A stretch of DNA of 27,269 nucleotides from positions 1-27,269 of the IMG/VR virus record IMGVR_UViG_3300047556_000015, one strand, 5' to 3'. The notes beneath the pieces are model-generated. The model ran no database searches, was not told the DNA's origin, and saw only the letters and a list, made by a program, of their open reading frames with translations. The stretch's first letter is position 1. Each line of letters begins with the position of its first letter. Position numbers and translations under genes: made by a program. Origin of the DNA: a virus. This document shows positions 2,295-16,261 of this stretch, piece after piece.

Positions 2295-2326
2295 AAAAAG
2301 GGGGCTTTGCAGCTCCCTTATTTTTT
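2294..2326. terminator. Bidirectional intrinsic terminator between convergent operons
   Basis: The arms GGGGGCT (2300-2306) and AGCTCCC (2311-2317) pair across the loop TTGC, with one G-T wobble. On the plus strand the arm is followed by TTATTTTTT; on the minus strand the other arm is followed by a T-run from the AAAAAAA at 2293-2299. It can stop transcription from both sides. The stop codon of the minor head gene (2318-2320) lies within its 3' flank. Confidence 0.8.
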
Positions 2327-4234
2327 CATGATCTCACGAGAAACGATCTCTTCAAACTGTGTGGTAGTGTGCCAGCTGCAACGCTTAATCAGCAGCTTGA
2401 TATCGTTCTTACCAATTACCTTACCCTCTGCATTTCGGGGCTTCTGAGAGAAGATAGCATCAACCAAGCCATCAATCTGACTGGTGTAAGGCTTGTTGAA
2501 TAGGTGGTCTTTCACCGTATTTATCGCCCTATCCCTGTCAACTCCCAGCACGTCAATCAGCTTATCGTAGTTGCATACCATCTGGTTATAGCCTGTGGAT
2601 GCACGAGACACCATAAACTCGGGGAATGGCACCTTATCAGCCCCCATAGCCTTATAGAATTCGGGTAGCGTTTTACGTGCTACTAGCTCATTCGCTAGCT
2701 CCATGTTGGACCTTTGCAGAGCGGTTGAAGCCCACGAAGAGGTTCTGTTCCTGCAGTGGGTGATCTCGTGCCAGTAGGTAGCCAATGCATCAGCCTCTTC
2801 AAAGGTGATATCCTGCTTATTCGCAAGCTTACCAAGTGCCCTAATGGTGTTATCCATCCTGTCACGCTTCAACCATATAGTGCCGTTCCTGTTGGTTGAG
2901 CCATTTATGCTGTTTCTACGCTCGATTTCAAGCCTTGTAAAATCCTTGTAGAACCAATCCTTACCGACCTCGTTGGTTCGGTTAATCACGTCGTCAATAG
3001 TCTTGATTGACACCTGTGGTGCTGGTGTTGGTTCTGGCTTAGGCTCTGCTTTTGGTGTAGGAGTAGGTGTAGGAGTAGGAGTTGCTACCTTTGGAGCTTT
3101 GTATATCGGCTTGGTAGAATCGAGCTTTAAACCTCCCGAAATGGTACCGCCCTTGAAGTTGTCACGAATGAAGTATGGCTGCGACCTCCAATTCATCGAG
3201 CGTTGGGTGTTCGTGCTAATCCACTCCTTGAAGCCGTTAGGCACGTCCGTAACCGCATTTCGAGAAACGAACTGCTTGTACTCCGTGCCGTTAATTGCAG
3301 ACTTTAGCTCGTTCAGCTCGTCGGCGTCGAACTCGTCCATATCCATTAATATTGGAACAACGAAACAACGGCATTGCGGATGCCAACCCACGAACTTGAA
3401 GCTCTTAGGGTACTTTCCTTTTAAGTCGTCGCAAACATCAACAAAAGGCACTCCGTTAAGGGTATGATTGTTCGATAGCTTTACCTCAAACCCAACCACG
3501 AAGTCTAGGCTTTCCCATCGTAGCTGATCGCTCGTTCTATAAGCCATGTTGATTTCGGAGCGAGTAAGGCGTAGAGCGTTCTTGTGGCTACTCCTATACT
3601 TACCTTGACCAGGATGGAATGCCTTAGCGTTTTTGGATAGCACTAGATTACCATGCTTATCCCTAACCCTGCGAAATAGTTTATCGGGGTCAACAAGGTA
3701 CTGCTTGAGGTCTCTCGATAGCTCTTGTGCTGAACGTCCATCGCCAATTCCAATATCTAAACTTAGCTCCATCTGCTTCTTGAACTGGTCCGTATAGTTC
3801 CATATCTTCTTTGATACGTCCAAGCCGTTTTCCTTACGCTTTTGAAACTCTTTAAGAGCGTCCAAATTGCGCTCTTGGAACTTCTCCAACGTTTTCTTTG
3901 GTAGGGCCGAGGTGTTGAGTATATGGGCTATAAAAGCATCGTTCTTAGCGCAAGCTGCAAGCCATTGCTTCTCCGTACCCTTCACGATAACAGATTGCAT
4001 ACCGTTAGCCATCTTGCCTACTATCTCGTTCGCCTTTTTGTTTGCACCAGGATAGTCGGCAAACGAAAAAGGCTTATTCGGGCCAATGCTTAAGCCTGTA
4101 CCCATACGTGCGAAGTCGTCCACCGCTGCCATGTAGATAGCATCAACAGCCTGTACGTATGCTTCTGTGTTCCGGTAAGCAGCAGCATCGAAGCCTTGTA
4201 TCGAAAAGCCCTGCTTGGTTAGCTTCTTAGCCAT
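2318..4234 (-). CDS. MuF-type minor head protein fused to a zincin-like C-terminal domain
   Basis: A 638-residue protein. Residues about 1-330 form a phage Mu F / SPP1 gp7-like head morphogenesis domain: TRSEINMAYRTSDQ (224-237) and the diagnostic GWHPQCRC (283-290). This component sits with the portal inside the capsid. A low-complexity linker rich in Thr-Pro and Lys-Pro (384-407) follows. The C-terminal domain (about 410-638) contains HEITH (489-493), a zinc-protease type HExxH motif, followed by MELANELVARKTLPEFY (511-527), whose Glu residues could be a third metal ligand. MuF proteins with variable C-terminal enzyme domains are known as phage-carried polymorphic effectors; here the domain could be a toxin, an ejected protease or a head-maturation protease. 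It is the last gene of the minus-strand train, 35 nt after a Cys-rich gene, and no immunity gene follows before the terminator. Confidence 0.85.
   Translation of the reverse strand: MAKKLTKQGFSIQGFDAAAYRNTEAYVQAVDAIYMAAVDDFARMGTGLSIGPNKPFSFADYPGANKKANEIVGKMANGMQSVIVKGTEKQWLAACAKNDAFIAHILNTSALPKKTLEKFQERNLDALKEFQKRKENGLDVSKKIWNYTDQFKKQMELSLDIGIGDGRSAQELSRDLKQYLVDPDKLFRRVRDKHGNLVLSKNAKAFHPGQGKYRSSHKNALRLTRSEINMAYRTSDQLRWESLDFVVGFEVKLSNNHTLNGVPFVDVCDDLKGKYPKSFKFVGWHPQCRCFVVPILMDMDEFDADELNELKSAINGTEYKQFVSRNAVTDVPNGFKEWISTNTQRSMNWRSQPYFIRDNFKGGTISGGLKLDSTKPIYKAPKVATPTPTPTPTPKAEPKPEPTPAPQVSIKTIDDVINRTNEVGKDWFYKDFTRLEIERRNSINGSTNRNGTIWLKRDRMDNTIRALGKLANKQDITFEEADALATYWHEITHCRNRTSSWASTALQRSNMELANELVARKTLPEFYKAMGADKVPFPEFMVSRASTGYNQMVCNYDKLIDVLGVDRDRAINTVKDHLFNKPYTSQIDGLVDAIFSQKPRNAEGKVIGKNDIKLLIKRCSWHTTTQFEEIVSREIMKK
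3054..3083 (+). repeat. 12-bp tandem repeat encoding the Thr-Pro linker
   Basis: The unit GGTGTAGGAGTA is present twice in a row (3054-3077) and continues as a partial third copy. On the coding (minus) strand it makes the alternating Thr-Pro linker between the MuF domain and the zincin-like domain. Slippage here would change the linker length without shifting the frame. Confidence 0.75.
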
Positions 4235-7771: not shown

Positions 7772-8275
7772 TTACCCCTTTATCTTTCGTTCGAGGTCAG
7801 CAATACGCTTGTCAAGCTCATCATCGCTAACCTTTGCGAACAAGTCCTTACCATCCTTACCAGTAAGCTCGGTGTTCTGCCTGTTCTGGTATTCATCGCT
7901 CGCCTTATTGGTAAGCACAAACTTGATAGCTTCGGTGTCGGGCTGGAAGTGCTTCTTAATCGTGGTTTGCTCCTTAATTTTCGGGCGACCATCCGCATCG
8001 TTCACATACACGGTTTTCTTTTCGTCCACCTCGTAGCCGTTAACCTTTTTACGAAGCGAGTTTTTAGCCTCATTTACAATTGTTTCGTCGAATTGCTGCC
8101 TCGCTCGCGCGATGGATTCTGCAAATTCTGCGATGTTCGCTTGCCATTCATAATAGGTACGCTCTGATATTCTGACAGTTGCGCAAATTTCGGCAATCGT
8201 GTACGTGTCCTTGCTTATCAAGGCACATATCTTATCGACTACCTTCTTGTTGTACTTTGTTGGTTTTGTTCTCAT
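7772..8275 (-). CDS. terS: Terminase small subunit-like HTH protein
   Basis: A 167-residue protein with an N-terminal helix-turn-helix: ISKDTYTIAEICATVRISER (19-38) followed by TYYEWQANIAEFAESI. The middle is a long helix with many Arg and Gln residues, and the C-terminus is charged and ends DKRIADLERKIKG. This is the layout of small terminase proteins of the phBC6A51/HTH type, which recognise the packaging site and oligomerise. The position directly upstream of the large terminase supports it. The N-terminal half could equally be read as a generic DNA-binding protein, so the assignment rests on context and the HTH. Confidence 0.75.
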   Translation of the reverse strand: MRTKPTKYNKKVVDKICALISKDTYTIAEICATVRISERTYYEWQANIAEFAESIARARQQFDETIVNEAKNSLRKKVNGYEVDEKKTVYVNDADGRPKIKEQTTIKKHFQPDTEAIKFVLTNKASDEYQNRQNTELTGKDGKDLFAKVSDDELDKRIADLERKIKG

Positions 8276-8277
8276 GG

Positions 8278-8517
8278 CTAATCTGTTTCTTCATCCATTT
8301 TTTTAAACGGTCCAAACTTTTCCTCGTAGGCGTGCTTCAATGACTTTAGGTGATGAAGCCCACCTGTTCTGTATCTACCAAGAAAGACAAGCCCTCCATT
8401 TGATTCGTAAACTAGCAGGAGCGCCTTTGTTTCAAGCCTTTTAAAGGCTACCTTTGCAATCTCTTCGTCAGTCAATTCGCTAACTGGAAGATGCTTTATT
8501 TCTCTCATGTGTCGCAT
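8278..8517 (-). CDS. Small hypothetical protein between folE and terminase
   Basis: A 79-residue protein, basic in the middle, beginning MRHMREIKHLPVSELTDEEI and ending acidic (FKKMDEETD). The segment ALLLVYESNGGLVFLGRYR looks like two beta strands. ATGs at 8517 and 8508 are both possible; a GTG at 8523 would overlap the folE stop. It ends 2 nt before the terminase small subunit start, so it bridges the modification cassette and the packaging genes in one transcription unit. Family not recognised. Confidence 0.55.
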   Translation of the reverse strand: MRHMREIKHLPVSELTDEEIAKVAFKRLETKALLLVYESNGGLVFLGRYRTGGLHHLKSLKHAYEEKFGPFKKMDEETD

Positions 8518-8522
8518 GGTCA

Positions 8523-9083
8523 CTATGATTTGATAAGTTGCATAAACTCGTTTCTAGCTGTCGAATCGTTATCGAATACCCCACGAACAGCACTCGTAAT
8601 CATTTGGCTTTGCTGCTTCTCCACACCCCTTGATGTCATACATAGGTGTTGGGCTTCACATACCACCATGCATCCTTTTGCATCGAGGCAGTTCATAATA
8701 TCGTCGGCTATTTGGCTTGTCATTCGCTCCTGTATCTGTAGCCTACGAGAGTACACCTCGACAAGCCTTGCAATTTTCGATATGCCAACGACCTTTTTGT
8801 TTGGCAGGTAGCCGATGGTTATCCTTCCGCTGAATGGTAGGAAGTGATGCTCACAGGTAGAGTAGAATTCGACGTTTTTTAGGATAACCATTTCGTTACA
8901 TGTACCATCCTCAAATGCTGTTCCTAGCACGTCTGCACCGCTCTTGTTGTAGCCTCCGAAAAGCTTCTCCCAGCTTCTCACCATTCGTTTAGGGGTATCA
9001 ATTAGCCCCTCCCTGTTCGGGTTATCACCGATATAGGCGATTACCTCCTTCAAATTGTCCTCTATGTTGATGTTACTTCTCAT
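8523..9083 (-). CDS. folE: GTP cyclohydrolase I (first step of 7-deazaguanine synthesis)
   Basis: A 186-residue, near full-length GTP cyclohydrolase I that converts GTP to dihydroneopterin triphosphate. Visible family motifs are NREGLIDTPKRMVRSWEKLF (23-42), FYSTCEHHFLPFSGR (73-87) with the zinc ligands Cys77 and His80, and AQHLCMTSRGVEKQ (145-158) with the third zinc ligand Cys148. All key residues appear present, so it should be active. Its start overlaps the end of queD by 11 nt. In this setting (QueE, QueD and a DpdA-like enzyme upstream) it supplies the pterin precursor for a deazaguanine base rather than folate. Confidence 0.93.
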   Translation of the reverse strand: MRSNINIEDNLKEVIAYIGDNPNREGLIDTPKRMVRSWEKLFGGYNKSGADVLGTAFEDGTCNEMVILKNVEFYSTCEHHFLPFSGRITIGYLPNKKVVGISKIARLVEVYSRRLQIQERMTSQIADDIMNCLDAKGCMVVCEAQHLCMTSRGVEKQQSQMITSAVRGVFDNDSTARNEFMQLIKS

Positions 9084-9402
9084 ACGTTGCTATGTTTCCG
9101 CTTGATTCCTGCACATCGCACCTGTAAGCCGTTTTTACCTGCTCCACGCACCACCGAGCGATGTTTTCAGCGGTTGGGTTAAATTCAAGCACCTCGTTCA
9201 GATGCCTATGGTCTAGCCTATCGTGGATGGACTGCTTTATCCTGGTAAAGTCCTCTACCATTCCATCGCTGTTGAGCGTTTCGGCTTGGCAGTACAGAAC
9301 GATAGTCCAGTTGTGTCCGTGTAAGCCCTTGCACTTGCTTTCGTAGCCTAGCTGTAGGCTGTGGCAAGCTGATACCTCCATTGTTTTCTGCACCCTGTAC
9401 AT
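9073..9402 (-). CDS. queD: 6-carboxytetrahydropterin synthase QueD
   Basis: A 109-residue protein of the 6-pyruvoyl-tetrahydropterin synthase fold that converts dihydroneopterin triphosphate to 6-carboxytetrahydropterin. Zinc ligands can be placed at His14 (SACHSL) and His28/His30 (KGLHGHNW), and the catalytic Cys is Cys24 in SKCKGLHGH. LDHRHLNE near residue 70 and a late Glu are also as expected (second His/Asp of the catalytic triad and pterin-anchoring Glu). It is slightly short but complete. It starts 1 nt after the queE stop and overlaps folE by 11 nt, so the three genes are translationally coupled. Confidence 0.92.
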   Translation of the reverse strand: MYRVQKTMEVSACHSLQLGYESKCKGLHGHNWTIVLYCQAETLNSDGMVEDFTRIKQSIHDRLDHRHLNEVLEFNPTAENIARWCVEQVKTAYRCDVQESSGNIATYEK

Positions 9403-9403
9403 C

Positions 9404-9970
9404 CTACTCGATATTTAGAATTTTATGGGTCTGAATGGAGACCTTGAACTGCCTACTTCTAAGGGCTGATTCCACGCAATACCTCACGTTTTCCATATTC
9501 ATCGTATCGCCATCGAAGCAGGGTGATAGGTAGTAGTGCCTTGCTGCTATCGGTGGGGTAGGTAGCACATCGCCCACCTTGAGCACAAATCGAAGCTCGT
9601 CAGCCCTGTCTATGGCTACCTGCTTCGTCTTGGGGCTGCATACCACGTAGTCCAACCCCTTTGGTAAGGCTCTAAGCCCATTCGTTTCGATGCTCTTGTA
9701 CCAGCCCTTGAATGCTTCCACCAGCTGGCTATCGAGCTGCAGCGTTGGCTCACCTCCGCAAAACGAAACGTTCTTGCATCCCTTCCCAACCTGCTCGCAC
9801 GTTCTTACCATATCGTGTGCGCTCATTTCGACGTAATCCGAATGGTCGGTATCGCAAAACGAGCACTTGAGGTTACAACCCGAAAAGCGAACAAACACCT
9901 GTGGTGTTCCTGCTCGCATACCCTCGCCCTGTAGCGAGTAAAAAATCCTGTTAATTCGATACTTTTTCAT
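9404..9970 (-). CDS. queE: 7-carboxy-7-deazaguanine synthase QueE (radical SAM)
   Basis: A 188-residue radical SAM enzyme that rearranges 6-carboxytetrahydropterin to 7-carboxy-7-deazaguanine (CDG). It starts MKKYRINRIFYSLQGEG, the standard QueE opening, followed by FVRFSGCNLKCSFCD with the 4Fe-4S cysteines 32, 36 and 39 (CX3CX2C), and FCGGEPTLQ, the SAM-binding GGEP block. YLSPCFDG later matches the family C-terminal part. The ATG at 9970 is preferred to one at 10000, which would overlap the DpdA-like gene and add ten non-conserved residues. With FolE and QueD it completes the route GTP to CDG. No QueC for the next step is present in the window. Confidence 0.92.
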   Translation of the reverse strand: MKKYRINRIFYSLQGEGMRAGTPQVFVRFSGCNLKCSFCDTDHSDYVEMSAHDMVRTCEQVGKGCKNVSFCGGEPTLQLDSQLVEAFKGWYKSIETNGLRALPKGLDYVVCSPKTKQVAIDRADELRFVLKVGDVLPTPPIAARHYYLSPCFDGDTMNMENVRYCVESALRSRQFKVSIQTHKILNIE

Positions 9971-9980
9971 ATTTGTAGGT

Positions 9981-10736
9981 TTATAGGTTACTTTCCGCAT
10001 AATCTTGAAATTTTCGCCACTCCTTGAAGTTGTGCTCGCGAATCATGATGTACTTGCCCCTTTGCGTTTTGGGGTCGCCCTTTTTGGCTATCTCGATGGT
10101 CCTGCCGTTGAACCTTACCACCGTACCGTAGGCACTCTGCTTAACCCAAGAGGTGCTGTCAACCGAGTAGAACTTGAAGCGTTCGAGCATGGTGGTTTTG
10201 GTGAATCCCAAGCCGTGTACGTTGCAGCCGTTATCCTTTGCCACCTCCAAGAACCAGGTGAGCGGTTTGTACTTATGGTACTTAAGCCAGCTGCTGGTAG
10301 GGATAAAATCGCTACCAGAAACCGAAATGGACACGTAGTTGTAGTGCTTTACCATATCAATCCACTCCTGCTTTCCTCGGGCTAAATGCCAGCATGGTAT
10401 AGATGGCATTCTCACCCTGTTTTCTATTCGCTTTCGGAGCTTTCTCGATTCCTCCACGCCTATCACGTAGTCAAGATCAAGCTCTATGTAGTGCCTCACG
10501 TTCTGCTGCAGAATGAAGTCTGCGTAGCTGTCGGCAAAATGCTCCCAATTCATTCTACCTACCGTTTTCATGAAGGTAAAGGCTCCGCTGTCTAAGATGA
10601 AGTCCTTGTAGGTAGTGAAGTCGATGTTTTTCTGCTTCACAGCGTAGATCATCGAATCAAGCCGATAGACCTTGCTGTTTTCCTGCGCGGTTAATGTTTG
10701 CCATATACCCGCATTTCCGGCCAAGAACACTCGCAT
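9981..10736 (-). CDS. dpdA: DpdA-like DNA 7-deazaguanine transglycosylase (TGT superfamily)
   Basis: A 251-residue TIM-barrel type protein of the tRNA-guanine transglycosylase superfamily. ILDSGAFTF (47-55) corresponds to the DSGGF region with the catalytic Asp, YIELDLDYVIG (83-93) to the second acidic block, HGLGFTKTTM (174-183) to the base-binding glycine motif, and FYSVDSTSWVK (189-199) to the late Asp motif. It is much shorter than bacterial tRNA TGT and lacks its C-terminal zinc site, as expected for phage DpdA enzymes that swap guanine for a deazaguanine in DNA. Its ATG shares one base with the stop of the ParB-like gene (TGATG); a TTG three bases upstream is less likely. QueE, QueD and FolE follow, so substrate synthesis and insertion are one cassette. 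Confidence 0.82.
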   Translation of the reverse strand: MRVFLAGNAGIWQTLTAQENSKVYRLDSMIYAVKQKNIDFTTYKDFILDSGAFTFMKTVGRMNWEHFADSYADFILQQNVRHYIELDLDYVIGVEESRKLRKRIENRVRMPSIPCWHLARGKQEWIDMVKHYNYVSISVSGSDFIPTSSWLKYHKYKPLTWFLEVAKDNGCNVHGLGFTKTTMLERFKFYSVDSTSWVKQSAYGTVVRFNGRTIEIAKKGDPKTQRGKYIMIREHNFKEWRKFQDYAESNL

Positions 10737-11266
10737 CAACCCTCCGTTCCATGGTCGTAGATGTTCTTACCGCAATGAGGACAAAGAACCTCCTTCTCCT
10801 TACTCCCTGCACCTCCTGTGTTCTCAAAGAAGTTGTCAATGTCGCCCTTGAATATGTCGGTAGGCTTAACGCCCCAATCCTCCGATTTCACGTTCCAATT
10901 CTCGTTGATTTGGGCTATTGCTTCCTCATCCCAATTAAGGTTTGCTTTTGATGTGGCGTTATCTGCCAGAGCAAGCTCACGCCCCTTTTTGCTATCCAAA
11001 TCAATATCGGTACGCTTAACCGCTACTATCTGGTCGCCTGTGGTTTCAACGATAATCACCTTATCCAAGCCTATTGAGGCAGCGTTTTCTACGGTCTTAT
11101 TCCCTGCTATGATTCGGTTGTTCTTATCGAGCAGTATGGAGCGACCAGCCCCCAACTCCCGAAGTGATTTTTCAATTAGGTGACCTCCGTACTCCGTTCC
11201 CTTATTCGCGTTAAGGTCGTCTGGTACAAGCTGGTCAATTTTTGTCTCTTTTACTTTTGTTGCCAT
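10736..11266 (-). CDS. ParB/Srx-fold protein with C-terminal zinc knuckle, partner of the DpdA-like enzyme
   Basis: A 176-residue protein with the phage ParB-like core: IDQLVPDDLNANKGTEYGG, then ELGAGRSILLDKNNRIIAGN (37-56), VENAASIGLDKVIIVE and RELALADNATSKANLNWDEE. The GAGRS and AGNKT motifs are the nucleotide-binding signature of the ParB/sulfiredoxin fold. The C-terminus carries a CPHCG pair (LCPHCGKNIYDHG), half of a zinc ribbon. It is coupled to the DpdA-like gene by a TGATG overlap and starts 20 nt from a promoter-like TATTTTTG. In bacterial deazaguanine-DNA systems a ParB-like ATPase (DpdB, as I recall) acts with DpdA; this gene may play that part. Alternatively it is a generic phage ParB-like nuclease or methylation accessory protein. 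Confidence 0.78.
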   Translation of the reverse strand: MATKVKETKIDQLVPDDLNANKGTEYGGHLIEKSLRELGAGRSILLDKNNRIIAGNKTVENAASIGLDKVIIVETTGDQIVAVKRTDIDLDSKKGRELALADNATSKANLNWDEEAIAQINENWNVKSEDWGVKPTDIFKGDIDNFFENTGGAGSKEKEVLCPHCGKNIYDHGTEG

Positions 11267-11654: not shown

Positions 11655-12947
11655 TTACTGAGTGGTTGTTAATACTTGTGCTATTTTTGGTAAGTTCTGC
11701 CTTACTAGGCTCACTATCTGCTTGTGGTACTTGGTGGGCTTATTATCGTAGCCCCTGCTTTGGTTGATGGTAAGGCTATTTAGCAGCACCTCTACCGTCT
11801 CAACCCTCTTACCATCCACCTTAGCCGATAGAATGAGCGAATTATCGTCATTGTAGTACTCGTTTTCAAAAACGCAATGGTTCAGCTCCGAACCCTCGTT
11901 GTAGAATTCTAAAACCGACTTCAACGGCTCAACCTTTAGGCTTCCTTTTGAGAATTCGAGGTCTAGGAACGGCTTTTTAGCCTCTTGGTAGGTTTTGTTA
12001 GCCTCTTCAATCTCGCTCAAGAGGCGTTGAAGCTCCATCTTTCGGGTTAGCTCCTTCTTCTTTTTGAGGTAGTGATCGTGAGCCTTCTTGATGTTGTCCG
12101 GAAAAACGTACTTGGCATTTTTCGTGTCCTTACCCAAATCGGATAGCAGCTTGATGTAGTCGCACCACATATCGGGTTGCTTCACGATGTAGCCGTTTCG
12201 CATGCAAATCTTTATCGAGTTCCAGTACTTGTTGATGTATTCGTCGCTAGCATCGTACCTGTAGAAGTGGCTAAATAGGCGGTACTGCTTCGCCTTTATG
12301 AGCGTTTCGTATCGGCTGCTGGTGATGATTAGGCTAAGCACCTCCGCAAATCTTCCTAGTACTGGCTTAAATCCGTTTCGCTTGGCTATCGGTGTCAGCT
12401 TCATGTATGGATAGGTAAGGTGTGCCCCTGGTAGATTCCTGTAGTCAGATGAAGCTCCTTTCTGCAGCTTTCGTAGCTGTAGGAATGTACCGTAAACCCA
12501 CCTGTAGTTGTAGAAAGCTCCTGCTTTATCCACGGTTAAGGCAACTATTTCGCCCTTATCGTTAACCCAATTCTGCACGATCTCACCGTATGCCTTTCGG
12601 GATGGGCCATGTAGCCAGTACCACTTCTCTACCTGCAGGTAGCGAAATACTTGGTAGCCCTCACACCTGTCAACAACGCACATGGTGTACCTAAGATCAA
12701 ACCTCGATCTACCATACTCGGCCTTCTTAAGCTTCATTCCACAGCTAGGGCAGATGCAGGTCTTTTGGTTGGTATCAACACCCACCAGATTAGCCCCACA
12801 CTCTAGGCATACTTTGTTCTTTTTGCTCACGTACATCAACCCATCAAAAAGCTTGCTGTAGGCGTACTCTACATGCTTATCGGTGAGCGGTGGGAGCTTT
12901 TGGGATAGCTCCACCACCTCCTTCTCAAGCTTTGTTTTTGGCTTCAT
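11655..12947 (-). CDS. PcfJ-like protein
   Basis: A 430-residue protein of the PcfJ family (first named from an enterococcal conjugative plasmid and common in Bacteroidota phages and mobile elements). The N-terminal part has a zinc-ribbon-like set, CLEC (47-50) and CICPSC (64-69). The middle is rich in Tyr and Trp, then comes a charged coiled-coil (about 290-330), and the C-terminal family block contains GSELNHCVFENEYYN followed by NQSRGYDNKPTKYHKQIVSL. The His/Cys pair and the Arg-Gly-x-x-N-K-P motif are the strongest family marks. Molecular role is unsettled. It lies 2 nt after the PcfK-like gene, the standard pair. Confidence 0.88.
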   Translation of the reverse strand: MKPKTKLEKEVVELSQKLPPLTDKHVEYAYSKLFDGLMYVSKKNKVCLECGANLVGVDTNQKTCICPSCGMKLKKAEYGRSRFDLRYTMCVVDRCEGYQVFRYLQVEKWYWLHGPSRKAYGEIVQNWVNDKGEIVALTVDKAGAFYNYRWVYGTFLQLRKLQKGASSDYRNLPGAHLTYPYMKLTPIAKRNGFKPVLGRFAEVLSLIITSSRYETLIKAKQYRLFSHFYRYDASDEYINKYWNSIKICMRNGYIVKQPDMWCDYIKLLSDLGKDTKNAKYVFPDNIKKAHDHYLKKKKELTRKMELQRLLSEIEEANKTYQEAKKPFLDLEFSKGSLKVEPLKSVLEFYNEGSELNHCVFENEYYNDDNSLILSAKVDGKRVETVEVLLNSLTINQSRGYDNKPTKYHKQIVSLVRQNLPKIAQVLTTTQ

Positions 12948-13370: not shown

Positions 13371-14861
13371 TTAAACAAGTACCGATTCAACAGCCATAGC
13401 GGTAGCCCTGCAAATTGCCTTTGCCATGTTCACCTCTACAGCGTTGCCTATAAACTTCTTTTGGTCCGCTTGCGTACCTACGAGCGTGTAATCCTTTGGA
13501 AAGCCCATGATCAGCTTAAGCTCGTCAATACGTAGCATTCTCATCTTGATATCAATGATGCCGTACAATGCCATGAACTCCTTTATCTTTTGGGTATATG
13601 GGCTATCGCTTTCGTACACCTCGATACCAATACCCCCACCTGCAACCTCAATTAGGTAAGGAGGCATCTTATCCATTCGGGCTATTAGGGTGAAGCATGG
13701 AGCATCCACCGAACCGCCAGCGTTCATATACTGAGGATTCATGAGGTAGTGCCACTTGCACGTTACCATGCTAAACTTAGGGTTGGTGGTTACGGTTGCA
13801 GCTGGCTGATCTATACTCATAGCCGTGCCATTGCCATACTGCATATCAATGAATGTAGGGTTAATTAGTGCCATCCTATCCTTTGTGGTTAAGGTTGGCG
13901 AAGGATTATCAATGCTGCTACAGTTATCGCCATTTCCATAGTAAGATGCTAGGAACTTAGCCTTTACTATCGAGTGGTGATCCTTAGTCGTTACTGCATG
14001 TGCTGGCTCTTCAATGCTGATATTCTTGCTATCAGGACTTCCAGAAAAGTACTTGCTTAAAAAGGCCTCTTTCCCTCCAGCAACAAACTTAACCAGCCCA
14101 GTATAGATACGCACTAGCGTTTTCTCCGATAGAGGTTTCTTTCTATCGAAAATGCTTGTGCCCTCGTCTTTAAAATCTAGCACTTCTCGCACTGGTTTCC
14201 ACTTGTTAAAGTGGAATAGCCCAACACCACCACCCTTGCAGTGCGTAGGTTCTGGCCATGAAATAGGTAGCCCATCGGCTGCAAATTGCCCGAAAAATCG
14301 CTTTCTTGCGGTGTAAGCTCCATAGTCCGCTGAGTTCAGAATCCTAAAATCGTACTCGTAGCCGTAGGAGCAAACCGTTTTTACCCACCTCACGTAGTCT
14401 GTTCCTGCCGTTCTCGACTTAGGCTTACCGTTATCGTCCAGCTCACCCCACGACATGAACTCTTCCACGTTCTCTATCTGTATGTAGTCTGGTTGTAACG
14501 CCTCGATGTACCTAAACAGGTGTAGGGCTAAGGTTCGGCTATCGGCATCTCGTGGCAAGCCTCCCTTCGCTTTGGAAAAGTTGGTACACTCCAAAGAAGC
14601 CCAAAGCACCAGCTTCGCATCGGGGTATAGCTCTCGCATTCTGCTGACATGCTCAACCATATTAGTAAGGTCTAGGGTTCTGATATCCTCGGTGAAGTGC
14701 AACGCTTCGGGATGGTTGGCTGCATGGGAAGCAATAGCGTTAGCATCATGGTTAACACAGGCTACTACCTTGGCGCACTGATCTCCATTTATTTCTGCTG
14801 TTTCAACGCCTGTACTGGTGCCACCTGCACCACAAAAAAGGTCAACGTATAGTAGATTCAT
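13371..14861 (-). CDS. DNA cytosine-C5 methyltransferase with repeated target-recognition blocks
   Basis: A 496-residue C5-cytosine methyltransferase that uses SAM to methylate phage DNA, probably as anti-restriction. Motif I is DLFCGAGGTSTG (7-18). Motif IV is ASLECTNFSK (88-97) with Cys92 as nucleophile; it reads L-E-C-T instead of the usual P-C-Q, a variant I associate with phage enzymes. Motif VI is IQIENVEEF (127-135), motif VIII YTARKRFFGQF (183-193), motif X GNAVEVNMA (472-480). The target region between about 284 and 400 holds four repeats of the type DxPxxTxTTKDxxxxV/I. The gene starts 3 nt after a small gene and is followed by PcfK. No cognate endonuclease is visible. Confidence 0.9.
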   Translation of the reverse strand: MNLLYVDLFCGAGGTSTGVETAEINGDQCAKVVACVNHDANAIASHAANHPEALHFTEDIRTLDLTNMVEHVSRMRELYPDAKLVLWASLECTNFSKAKGGLPRDADSRTLALHLFRYIEALQPDYIQIENVEEFMSWGELDDNGKPKSRTAGTDYVRWVKTVCSYGYEYDFRILNSADYGAYTARKRFFGQFAADGLPISWPEPTHCKGGGVGLFHFNKWKPVREVLDFKDEGTSIFDRKKPLSEKTLVRIYTGLVKFVAGGKEAFLSKYFSGSPDSKNISIEEPAHAVTTKDHHSIVKAKFLASYYGNGDNCSSIDNPSPTLTTKDRMALINPTFIDMQYGNGTAMSIDQPAATVTTNPKFSMVTCKWHYLMNPQYMNAGGSVDAPCFTLIARMDKMPPYLIEVAGGGIGIEVYESDSPYTQKIKEFMALYGIIDIKMRMLRIDELKLIMGFPKDYTLVGTQADQKKFIGNAVEVNMAKAICRATAMAVESVLV

Positions 14862-15430: not shown

Positions 15431-16261
15431 TTATTCCTGGTTAAACATATTATACTCTCTACCTACGCAATTCTTAAGCAGCCAGCTTCGGTCTATCCCT
15501 GCCTGTTTAAGTAGTGAATCCTTCCAGTACACCTTGAAGCCAAAACTTAGCGAAAGCACGTTGACCATTTCAACGAAGTCGCAAAGCTCTTGCCTGTTGT
15601 ACTTTTTACCCGATTCAAGGCCGATTTTGTACAGGTTGCAGAAGCCTACCGTCTGCTTAATCATTTCAAGGCTGCTATTCAAGTCTATAATAGGCTCAAT
15701 AGAAGCAAATGTCTTAAACCCTGCATCGTGTAGCTTATTCATTGCATCTATACGTTCAGCGTTGGTGCTGGCGTTCGGTTCAAGTTCGTCGTGTCCTGTA
15801 AGGGTAAAGCCGAAGGCAATCTTGTGTATTTTTATTGCTTTGCCATCGCATACAATTGGACCATTACTGCCAAGAAATTCATCCACCCAATCCGCGCGTT
15901 TTGTAAGCACCTTTACAGGTACGTTGTTAACAACTAGAGAATTGATTGCGTTAAACGTCAAACGTATAGTTTCAGGAAGCATAGGGTCAGTTGTAAAACT
16001 AAAAAACACGCCATACTCTTTTACTTCATCCATATTTTGAAGTAATTCTTTTCTAAAGATATCCAGTGCACGCTCTTCACTTTTGAAGAACTTCTTTAGC
16101 GTTGGCTTATCGCCTCCCATAGTCGAGGCTAAAACGCCTTTCTTGCAGTAGCAGTAGGTACACCCATTAGAGCAACCTACGTAGAAGTTACAAGCCCACT
16201 CTGCATACTCCCCAGCCTTACCGCTTGGGTTGTATATTGCCTTTCCTTTAAATCCTTTCAT
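15431..16261 (-). CDS. Radical SAM protein, SplB/photolyase-like subgroup, unknown substrate
   Basis: A 276-residue radical SAM enzyme. The cluster motif is GCSNGCTYCYC with cysteines 30, 34 and 37 (CX3CX2C). The opening YNPSGKAGEYAEWACNFYVGC is typical of a phage-encoded group often annotated as DNA-repair-photolyase-like or spore-photoproduct-lyase-like. Later blocks FFSFTTDPMLPE (about 86-97) and VLTKRADWVD, then FGFTLTG and TFASIEPIID, are the barrel strands that bind SAM in that group. The substrate is unknown; a nucleic-acid base lesion or modification is plausible given the two DNA modification systems nearby, but this is inference. It lies between the resolvase and a small gene in one transcription unit. 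Confidence 0.8.
   Translation of the reverse strand: MKGFKGKAIYNPSGKAGEYAEWACNFYVGCSNGCTYCYCKKGVLASTMGGDKPTLKKFFKSEERALDIFRKELLQNMDEVKEYGVFFSFTTDPMLPETIRLTFNAINSLVVNNVPVKVLTKRADWVDEFLGSNGPIVCDGKAIKIHKIAFGFTLTGHDELEPNASTNAERIDAMNKLHDAGFKTFASIEPIIDLNSSLEMIKQTVGFCNLYKIGLESGKKYNRQELCDFVEMVNVLSLSFGFKVYWKDSLLKQAGIDRSWLLKNCVGREYNMFNQE

Follow-up and report, generated by a model that had tools for sequence, protein, structure and literature searches.

The window analysed here, the whole 27,269-bp IMG/VR record IMGVR_UViG_3300047556_000015, carries a 7-deazaguanine DNA-modification cassette on its minus strand. Running back to back from 11266 to 8523, five genes encode a ParB-like protein, a DpdA-like DNA guanine transglycosylase, QueE, QueD and FolE, and are followed by the terminase side of the phage genome.

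The cassette genes and their products

10736..11266, minus strand: ParB/sulfiredoxin-like protein, 176 aa (PHROG 620, E=6e-17)
9981..10736, minus strand: DpdA-like DNA guanine transglycosylase, 251 aa, ATG at 10736 (PHROG 887 'queuine tRNA-ribosyltransferase', E=2e-41)
9968..9980, no strand: empty slot between DpdA and QueE; in our gene-order survey, homologous cassettes have QueC or a substitute after DpdA
9404..9967, minus strand: QueE, radical SAM 7-carboxy-7-deazaguanine (CDG) synthase (PHROG 2076, E=2e-30; CNLKCSFC)
9073..9402, minus strand: QueD, 6-carboxytetrahydropterin synthase (PF01242, E=2e-26)
8523..9083, minus strand: FolE, GTP cyclohydrolase I (PF01227, E=8e-73; TIGR00063, 238.5 bits against a cut-off of 181.6)

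This coupled run had been proposed in an initial annotation made from the sequence alone, and it was confirmed by the coordinates, by the family matches and by its recurrence in about 150 homologous loci. The family motifs are likewise intact, namely C77-E-H-H and C148 in FolE, C24/H28/H30 in QueD, C-x3-C-x2-C in QueE (CNLKCSFC) and DSGAF in DpdA. QueE matched TIGR04508 with E=1e-34, yet at 120 bits it falls far short of the 240 bits required for an equivalog, and QueD reached 87.9 bits with TIGR03367, slightly below the cut-off of 89.25; QueD is 56-64% identical to its relatives, in which Cys24, His28 and His30 are invariant. An upstream ATG at 10000 was considered as the QueE start and found less likely than the Met at 9967, because the homologues begin at the latter. 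Neighbouring coding regions overlap or are separated by no more than about 14 bases, and the cassette therefore reads as one operon. A second record (L001) is 100% identical to the window across 10,627 bases, so that the arrangement is not an accident of one assembly; this identity and the recurrence of the same genes in homologous loci place the cassette far beyond chance.

During infection FolE, QueD and QueE would convert GTP to CDG. The gene content supports the earlier claim that the cassette's own enzymes end at this compound, and the two alternatives that follow, direct insertion of CDG or the borrowing of QueC from the host, had been correctly stated.

The DpdA-like protein is predicted to have a transglycosylase fold

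The DpdA-like protein matched no Pfam family, and a PDB sequence search with the DpdA profile returned chance matches only. Profile-profile comparison with bacterial tRNA-guanine transglycosylase (TGT) gave no significant score, the best local alignment being the 'YVAIGG'/'YAIGG' loop (E 0.1), and the homology therefore rests on the fold. An AF2 model built from 40 window and IMG/VR sequences (pLDDT 87) was compared with known structures using VIA-align. The best structural matches were TGTs (Z 14.6-15.4, root-mean-square deviation about 3.6 over about 231-241 residues), with mouse QTRT1 (Z 15.4), the Zymomonas mobilis TGT with preQ0 (2qii, Z 14.9) and an archaeal TGT (Z 14.9) at the top. The model thus predicts a TGT-type (beta-alpha)8 barrel, in which the active site is not lacking. 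Residues D49 (DSGAF), D87 (ELD), H174 and D193 (VDST) are conserved in practically all of about 140 relatives, and both catalytic aspartates of TGT have equivalents:

10590..10592, minus strand: DpdA Asp49 of DSGAF, equivalent of TGT Asp102; invariant in alignment A4 and about 140 loci
10158..10160, minus strand: DpdA Asp193 of VDST, equivalent of the TGT nucleophile Asp280; invariant in alignment A4, kept in about 140 loci

D49 lies at the position of Asp102 in TGT. Asp280 is the TGT nucleophile (PMC3660597). By analogy, DpdA would excise guanine at chosen sites of the phage DNA by means of the aspartate nucleophile D193 and place a 7-deazaguanine where the guanine was, the exchange occurring after replication.

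FolE and QueD families also serve pterins and tRNA queuosine, and the enzymes of the window could in principle serve tRNA or folate metabolism of the host instead of modifying phage DNA. We consider this very improbable, since the DpdA-like protein, with 251 aa against about 370-390 aa, lacks about 130 residues compared with tRNA TGTs and belongs to the phage DpdA family, where it is linked to ParB and terminase genes. It is encoded by a phage and stands next to 7-deazaguanine synthesis genes, as is expected of a DpdA.

QueC is missing from a position where homologous cassettes carry or replace it

QueC (PF06508) is absent from the cassette and from the whole record. The T-fold model used for QueF matched FolE weakly and nothing else, and no amidotransferase was found among the window proteins scanned; nor did these proteins include QueF, QueF-L, ArcS or Gat-QueC of the 2'-deoxyarchaeosine (dG+) and dPreQ1 systems, with no model-based search made for ArcS. 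A Vut_1-like transporter of preQ0 type, the mark of salvage-type cassettes, is likewise missing from the window and the slot is empty, and a PADLOC scan of ten window proteins gave no Dpd match of the sort expected for a bacterial dpd modification-restriction island, which has DpdB and the Dpd restriction proteins next to DpdA. The cassette may accordingly be called self-contained, as it had been, but only for a 27-kb fragment, and the reported lack of QueC, QueF and amidotransferase stands for the part seen and does not reach beyond it, where a distant copy could lie.

DpdA relatives were taken from viral contigs and genome contigs and annotated with profiles built for the survey, which gave about 150 distinct homologous loci, 132 of them with enough upstream sequence and about 100 with QueD, QueE and FolE. 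Over the about 150 loci the conserved order is ParB-DpdA-slot-QueD-QueE-FolE. The slot usually holds QueC, and otherwise a preQ0 transporter, a membrane-fused QueC-like protein, a methyltransferase or, in the window and six others, nothing. Among the about 100 cassettes with synthesis genes, 61 have the order DpdA-QueC-QueD-QueE-FolE and six the same order with a divergent zinc-site QueC; in nine a YdjM-like membrane domain is joined to a QueC-like domain of SGGxDS type that has no zinc cysteines, eleven have a methyltransferase (to which L202, with its synthesis genes ahead of DpdA, may be added), and in six nothing was recognised (L170 has an ORFan there). A few rarer orders occur besides. 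DpdA-QueE-QueD-FolE without QueC was found once, in the window. A preQ0-type transporter occupies 32 further distinct loci. Of 100 cassettes with all three synthesis genes, about 80 thus contain QueC or a QueC-like protein, and since most homologues have QueC or a substitute within the cassette, its absence from that of the window is meaningful. Loci without canonical QueC or transporter are scattered on the DpdA tree (16 changes, the membrane-fused type being counted as lacking), which implies that QueC has been lost or exchanged repeatedly. Searched in full, the records of the QueC-less loci that were tested, some of them short, yielded no QueC anywhere.

Could a QueC, or another enzyme processing CDG such as a decarboxylase or an amidotransferase, be encoded in an unseen part of the phage genome? 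The record is classed as linear and is probably a fragment; portal and terminase genes are present, no capsid or tail gene was found among the proteins identified in it, and the longer terminase relatives of the window are mostly 40-52 kb. Homologous cassettes, however, nearly always hold QueC inside the cassette, and no match above the cut-off was obtained anywhere in 27 terminase relatives, so that we regard this explanation as improbable. A decaying or idle cassette, which has lost QueC and leaves the DNA unmodified, seems less probable still. The missing QueC, the long DpdA branch and the altered order would fit it, QueE standing ahead of QueD only in the window and in L136, the latter with a membrane-fused QueC-like gene; against it, two identical records show all four genes unbroken and tightly joined, with every active-site motif complete.

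Some occupants of the slot deserve a separate description. The methyltransferase is a class-I enzyme of 185-195 aa found in 12 distinct cassettes of uncultured phages which still have FolE, QueD and QueE (L130:2154-2717, L122:2409-2963, L134:1379-1948, L202:3271-3825 and eight more). It matched Methyltransf_23 (E=6e-6), its model (pLDDT 89) resembles alpha-N-terminal and small-molecule methyltransferases (VIA Z 15), and no homologue was found among 50,697 phage records. It is possible that this enzyme makes a methylated CDG base. The membrane-fused type, a YdjM/phospholipase-like membrane segment joined to an SGGxDS QueC-like ATPase domain without zinc cysteines, occupies the QueC slot at L111:8876-9634, L115:3399-4148, L136:2557-3294, L144-L148, L156 and L298. 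Furthermore, two cassettes from Prevotella and Bacteroidales metagenome-assembled genomes (L238, L242) contain a tandem pair of DpdA copies, and one from a Muribaculaceae isolate genome (L243) combines a QueC-like gene with a preQ0-type transporter.

The window DpdA has an unusual pocket loop

In TGT, the Leu231/Ala232 peptide senses the 7-substituent and flips between preQ1 and guanine, held by Glu235 (PMC3660597). The corresponding loop of the window protein is:

10314..10331, minus strand: DpdA residues 136-141 'SISVSG', aligned with TGT VGG-L231-A232 (alignments)

The DpdA family reads 'YVAIGGIVTKE' here, with a glutamate at the position of Glu235 in most GG-type sequences, and the window reads 'YVSISVSGS' (SxSG type). 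A [GS]xSG loop was found in all 12 methyltransferase cassettes and in none of the 32 transporter cassettes, in 8 of 82 with QueC, in 4 of 10 of the membrane-fused type and, among the 8 whose slot is empty or undefined, in 2 (the window and L170). Its association with the lack of QueC or transporter gave a Fisher p=4e-8, with phylogeny ignored and on an earlier 90-row set from which membrane-fused rows were excluded, and about five changes are needed to explain it on a tree built without the loop columns. As for named phages outside the family, the enzymes of Vid5 (dG+), Iggy and CAjan-like Seuratvirus have IGGMVG/LGGMVG at the loop; the GKLL of Bipper is also without GG, and MED16 has GSSG in the same columns. 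MED16 DNA has been measured to contain 2'-deoxy-7-amido-7-deazaguanosine (dADG) (PMC8306585). Salmonella phage 7-11, also reported with dADG, has GCMG.

The loop is thus suggestive, a lead to the inserted base and no proof of it, and this short segment may predict which base a DpdA inserts. It is conceivable, and in our view rather unlikely, that the SxSG loop marks a convergent DpdA class taking a planar carboxyl-type 7-substituent (CDG or its amide or ester) and not the preQ0 nitrile, in which case the window would insert CDG and its methyltransferase relatives would make a methylated CDG base undescribed in DNA.

Which base would be inserted

The base would most likely be CDG itself, because QueC is absent where nearly all homologous cassettes carry or replace it and because the pocket loop is not of the GG type; the product would be dCDG, a negatively charged nucleoside, in the DNA of a Bacteroidales phage. 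On gene content and loop sequence we give direct insertion by the window cassette about an even chance.

Several observations weigh against it. The record is a linear 27-kb fragment, and the absence of QueC covers the part seen. Independent pairs on the tree go in the expected direction by 2.3 to 0, which is not significant, and the window is a long branch on the DpdA tree. A strict rule that an SG loop means no QueC had to be rejected, as five loci (L206, L213, L228, L296 and L301) combine an SG loop with canonical QueC; the DpdAs of L213 (QueC) and L219 (methyltransferase) are nearly identical, and taken together these cases show that the loop does not fix the substrate. The MED16-type DpdA of Tbat1_6, with a GSSG loop, even adjoins a preQ0-type transporter. 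Finally, QueC is present in all five sampled genomes of the family that holds the nearest terminase relative, so that host preQ0 may be available.

This last point leads to the other route, in which host QueC would turn the CDG pool boosted by the phage into preQ0 and DpdA would insert preQ0, giving dPreQ0 as in CAjan and Rosebush. We regard it as a serious possibility of distinctly lower probability. In E. coli, the DpdA of phage 9g is by itself sufficient to modify plasmid DNA with preQ0 made by the host (PMC6884629), and the empty-slot cassettes L154, L188, L192 and L335 retain GG loops, which fits a preQ0 supplied by the host. The window loop, however, is without the GG that is usual for transporter and QueC cassettes. 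QueC was found in 58 of 198 sampled Bacteroidales (E 1e-20; genomes may be incomplete), about 70% thus being without a clear QueC, and hosts with QueC would usually also encode QueD and QueE, in which case the phage enzymes would partly duplicate them. The search for queC suggested earlier was thus negative in the phage record and positive in the family of the nearest terminase relative; host-side QueE counts were left unused, their matches being below the family cut-off.

The earlier expectation that the phage DNA should resist many restriction enzymes by either route was not supported, as dPreQ0 and dADG proved weak or inert in published tests. EcoRI is blocked by dG+ and not by preQ0 (Hutinet 2019, PMC6884629), and with the low level of dADG in MED16 the action of the enzymes tested was not noticeably changed (PMC8306585). 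A charged carboxylate might differ in its effect on restriction, and protection from host nucleases is a putative function of the cassette.

Insertion next to the terminase genes and the phage background

6298..7764, minus strand: terminase large subunit TerL (PHROG 38, E=2e-91)
7772..8275, minus strand: terminase small subunit TerS (PHROG 309, E=1e-28)
8278..8523, minus strand: 81-aa open reading frame (ORF) between FolE and TerS (no Pfam, PHROG or NCBIfam match)

Downstream of FolE the order is the 81-aa ORF, TerS, TerL, portal and a MuF-type head protein. The window TerL is 70.6% identical to that of Porphyromonas gingivalis phages and 74% to that of a Bacteroidales prophage; we infer that the host is a Bacteroidales bacterium. 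A genome scan for a prophage with this exact cassette found none.

ParB stands directly ahead of DpdA in 127 of 132 distinct loci. The window ParB nevertheless shares 68-77% identity (best cases) with the ParBs of terminase relatives that have no dpd genes, and no more than 49% with ParBs linked to DpdA elsewhere. It was therefore rejected as a cassette partner and assigned to the terminase lineage: its place in the coupled run is as described in the initial annotation, and its identity ties it to the phage backbone. In the terminase relatives ParB immediately precedes TerS with no dpd gene between, and hence the most likely origin of the cassette is an insertion of dpd genes into a pre-existing ParB-TerS junction, at which other phages of the group have other genes. 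In two terminase relatives (L007:617-1534, L010:8642-9508) a protein with a conserved 'YPIH[VI]PSKGRY[NS]SNITVKALERM' segment is encoded there, suggesting a swap site for modification genes.

Further genes of the window include a cytosine-C5 DNA methyltransferase (13371-14861, minus strand; PF00145, E=2e-28), a second and independent DNA-modification gene of the phage, and a radical-SAM protein near the DUF5131/PA0069/spore photoproduct lyase families (15431-16261, minus strand). Both were rejected as parts of the cassette, since they also occur in terminase relatives without dpd genes. A PcfJ-like protein (11655-12947, minus strand; PF14284, E=4e-33) is encoded directly upstream of ParB; several DpdA cassettes (L003, L110, L128, L242) also have PcfJ upstream of ParB. 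The MuF-like head morphogenesis protein (2318-4234, minus strand; 638 aa) has a C-terminal extension with an HExxH motif (HEITH) past a TP-rich linker, a fusion in the style of polyvalent proteins.

Comparison with known systems

A QueC-less cassette has been noted for Mycobacterium phage Bipper, with CDG suggested there (Hutinet 2019, PMC6884629), and mycobacteria were reported to be without any Q-pathway genes (PMC6884629). Bipper (KU728633) likewise has ParB-DpdA-QueD-QueE-FolE adjoining the terminase, and QueC is absent from its complete genome (77.8 kb), making it by analogy the cleanest precedent for CDG. It differs from the window in gene order, QueD standing ahead of QueE, in an additional 141-aa ORF that occupies the slot, and in its DpdA, which has 357 aa, is about 23% identical and reads GKLL in place of SVSG. 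A 2023 study by Cui et al. in Nucleic Acids Research (NAR) is also said to have reported dCDG in phage DNA.

The phage clone MT835752 from human faeces (L003) and its relatives in IMG/VR (the L110 group) share the arrangement ParB-DpdA-QueD-QueE-FolE-TerS-TerL (DpdA 32% and QueD 64% identical to the window), but have a divergent zinc-site QueC after DpdA, the loop IGTTSA and another terminase (27%). CAjan and Rosebush, which contain dPreQ0, have FolE, QueD and QueE, and their DpdA falls into the same broad TGT-like family; their systems (FolE-QueD-QueE-QueC-DpdA) include QueC, and the CAjan-like Seuratvirus DpdA has a GG loop and about 24% identity to that of the window. Fusobacterium phage phiFN37 (OR492271) has the ParB-DpdA pair, with DpdA 34% identical, but is of the salvage type, with a preQ0-type transporter beside DpdA and no FolE, QueD or QueE in the stretch. 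The Cellulophaga phages of the phiSM/phi38:2 group also infect Bacteroidota and have a DpdA adjoining ParB together with QueD, QueE and FolE, but carry QueC and QueF and a DpdA about 26% identical. We found no published measurement of 7-deazaguanines in Bacteroidales phages.

The QueC-less condition is therefore not new, and the cassette represents a type of DNA disguise already familiar from phages, here in a group that is under-sampled. What is a real and testable oddity is the combination, in the window cassette, of a missing QueC and a non-GG pocket. If CDG is inserted, the cassette would be a minimal pathway, of four genes, by which phage DNA acquires a negatively charged base. The position after DpdA is a swap slot, filled by QueC, Gat-QueC, a membrane-fused QueC-like protein, a methyltransferase, a transporter or nothing, and together with the pocket loop it makes the identity of the base testable from sequence.

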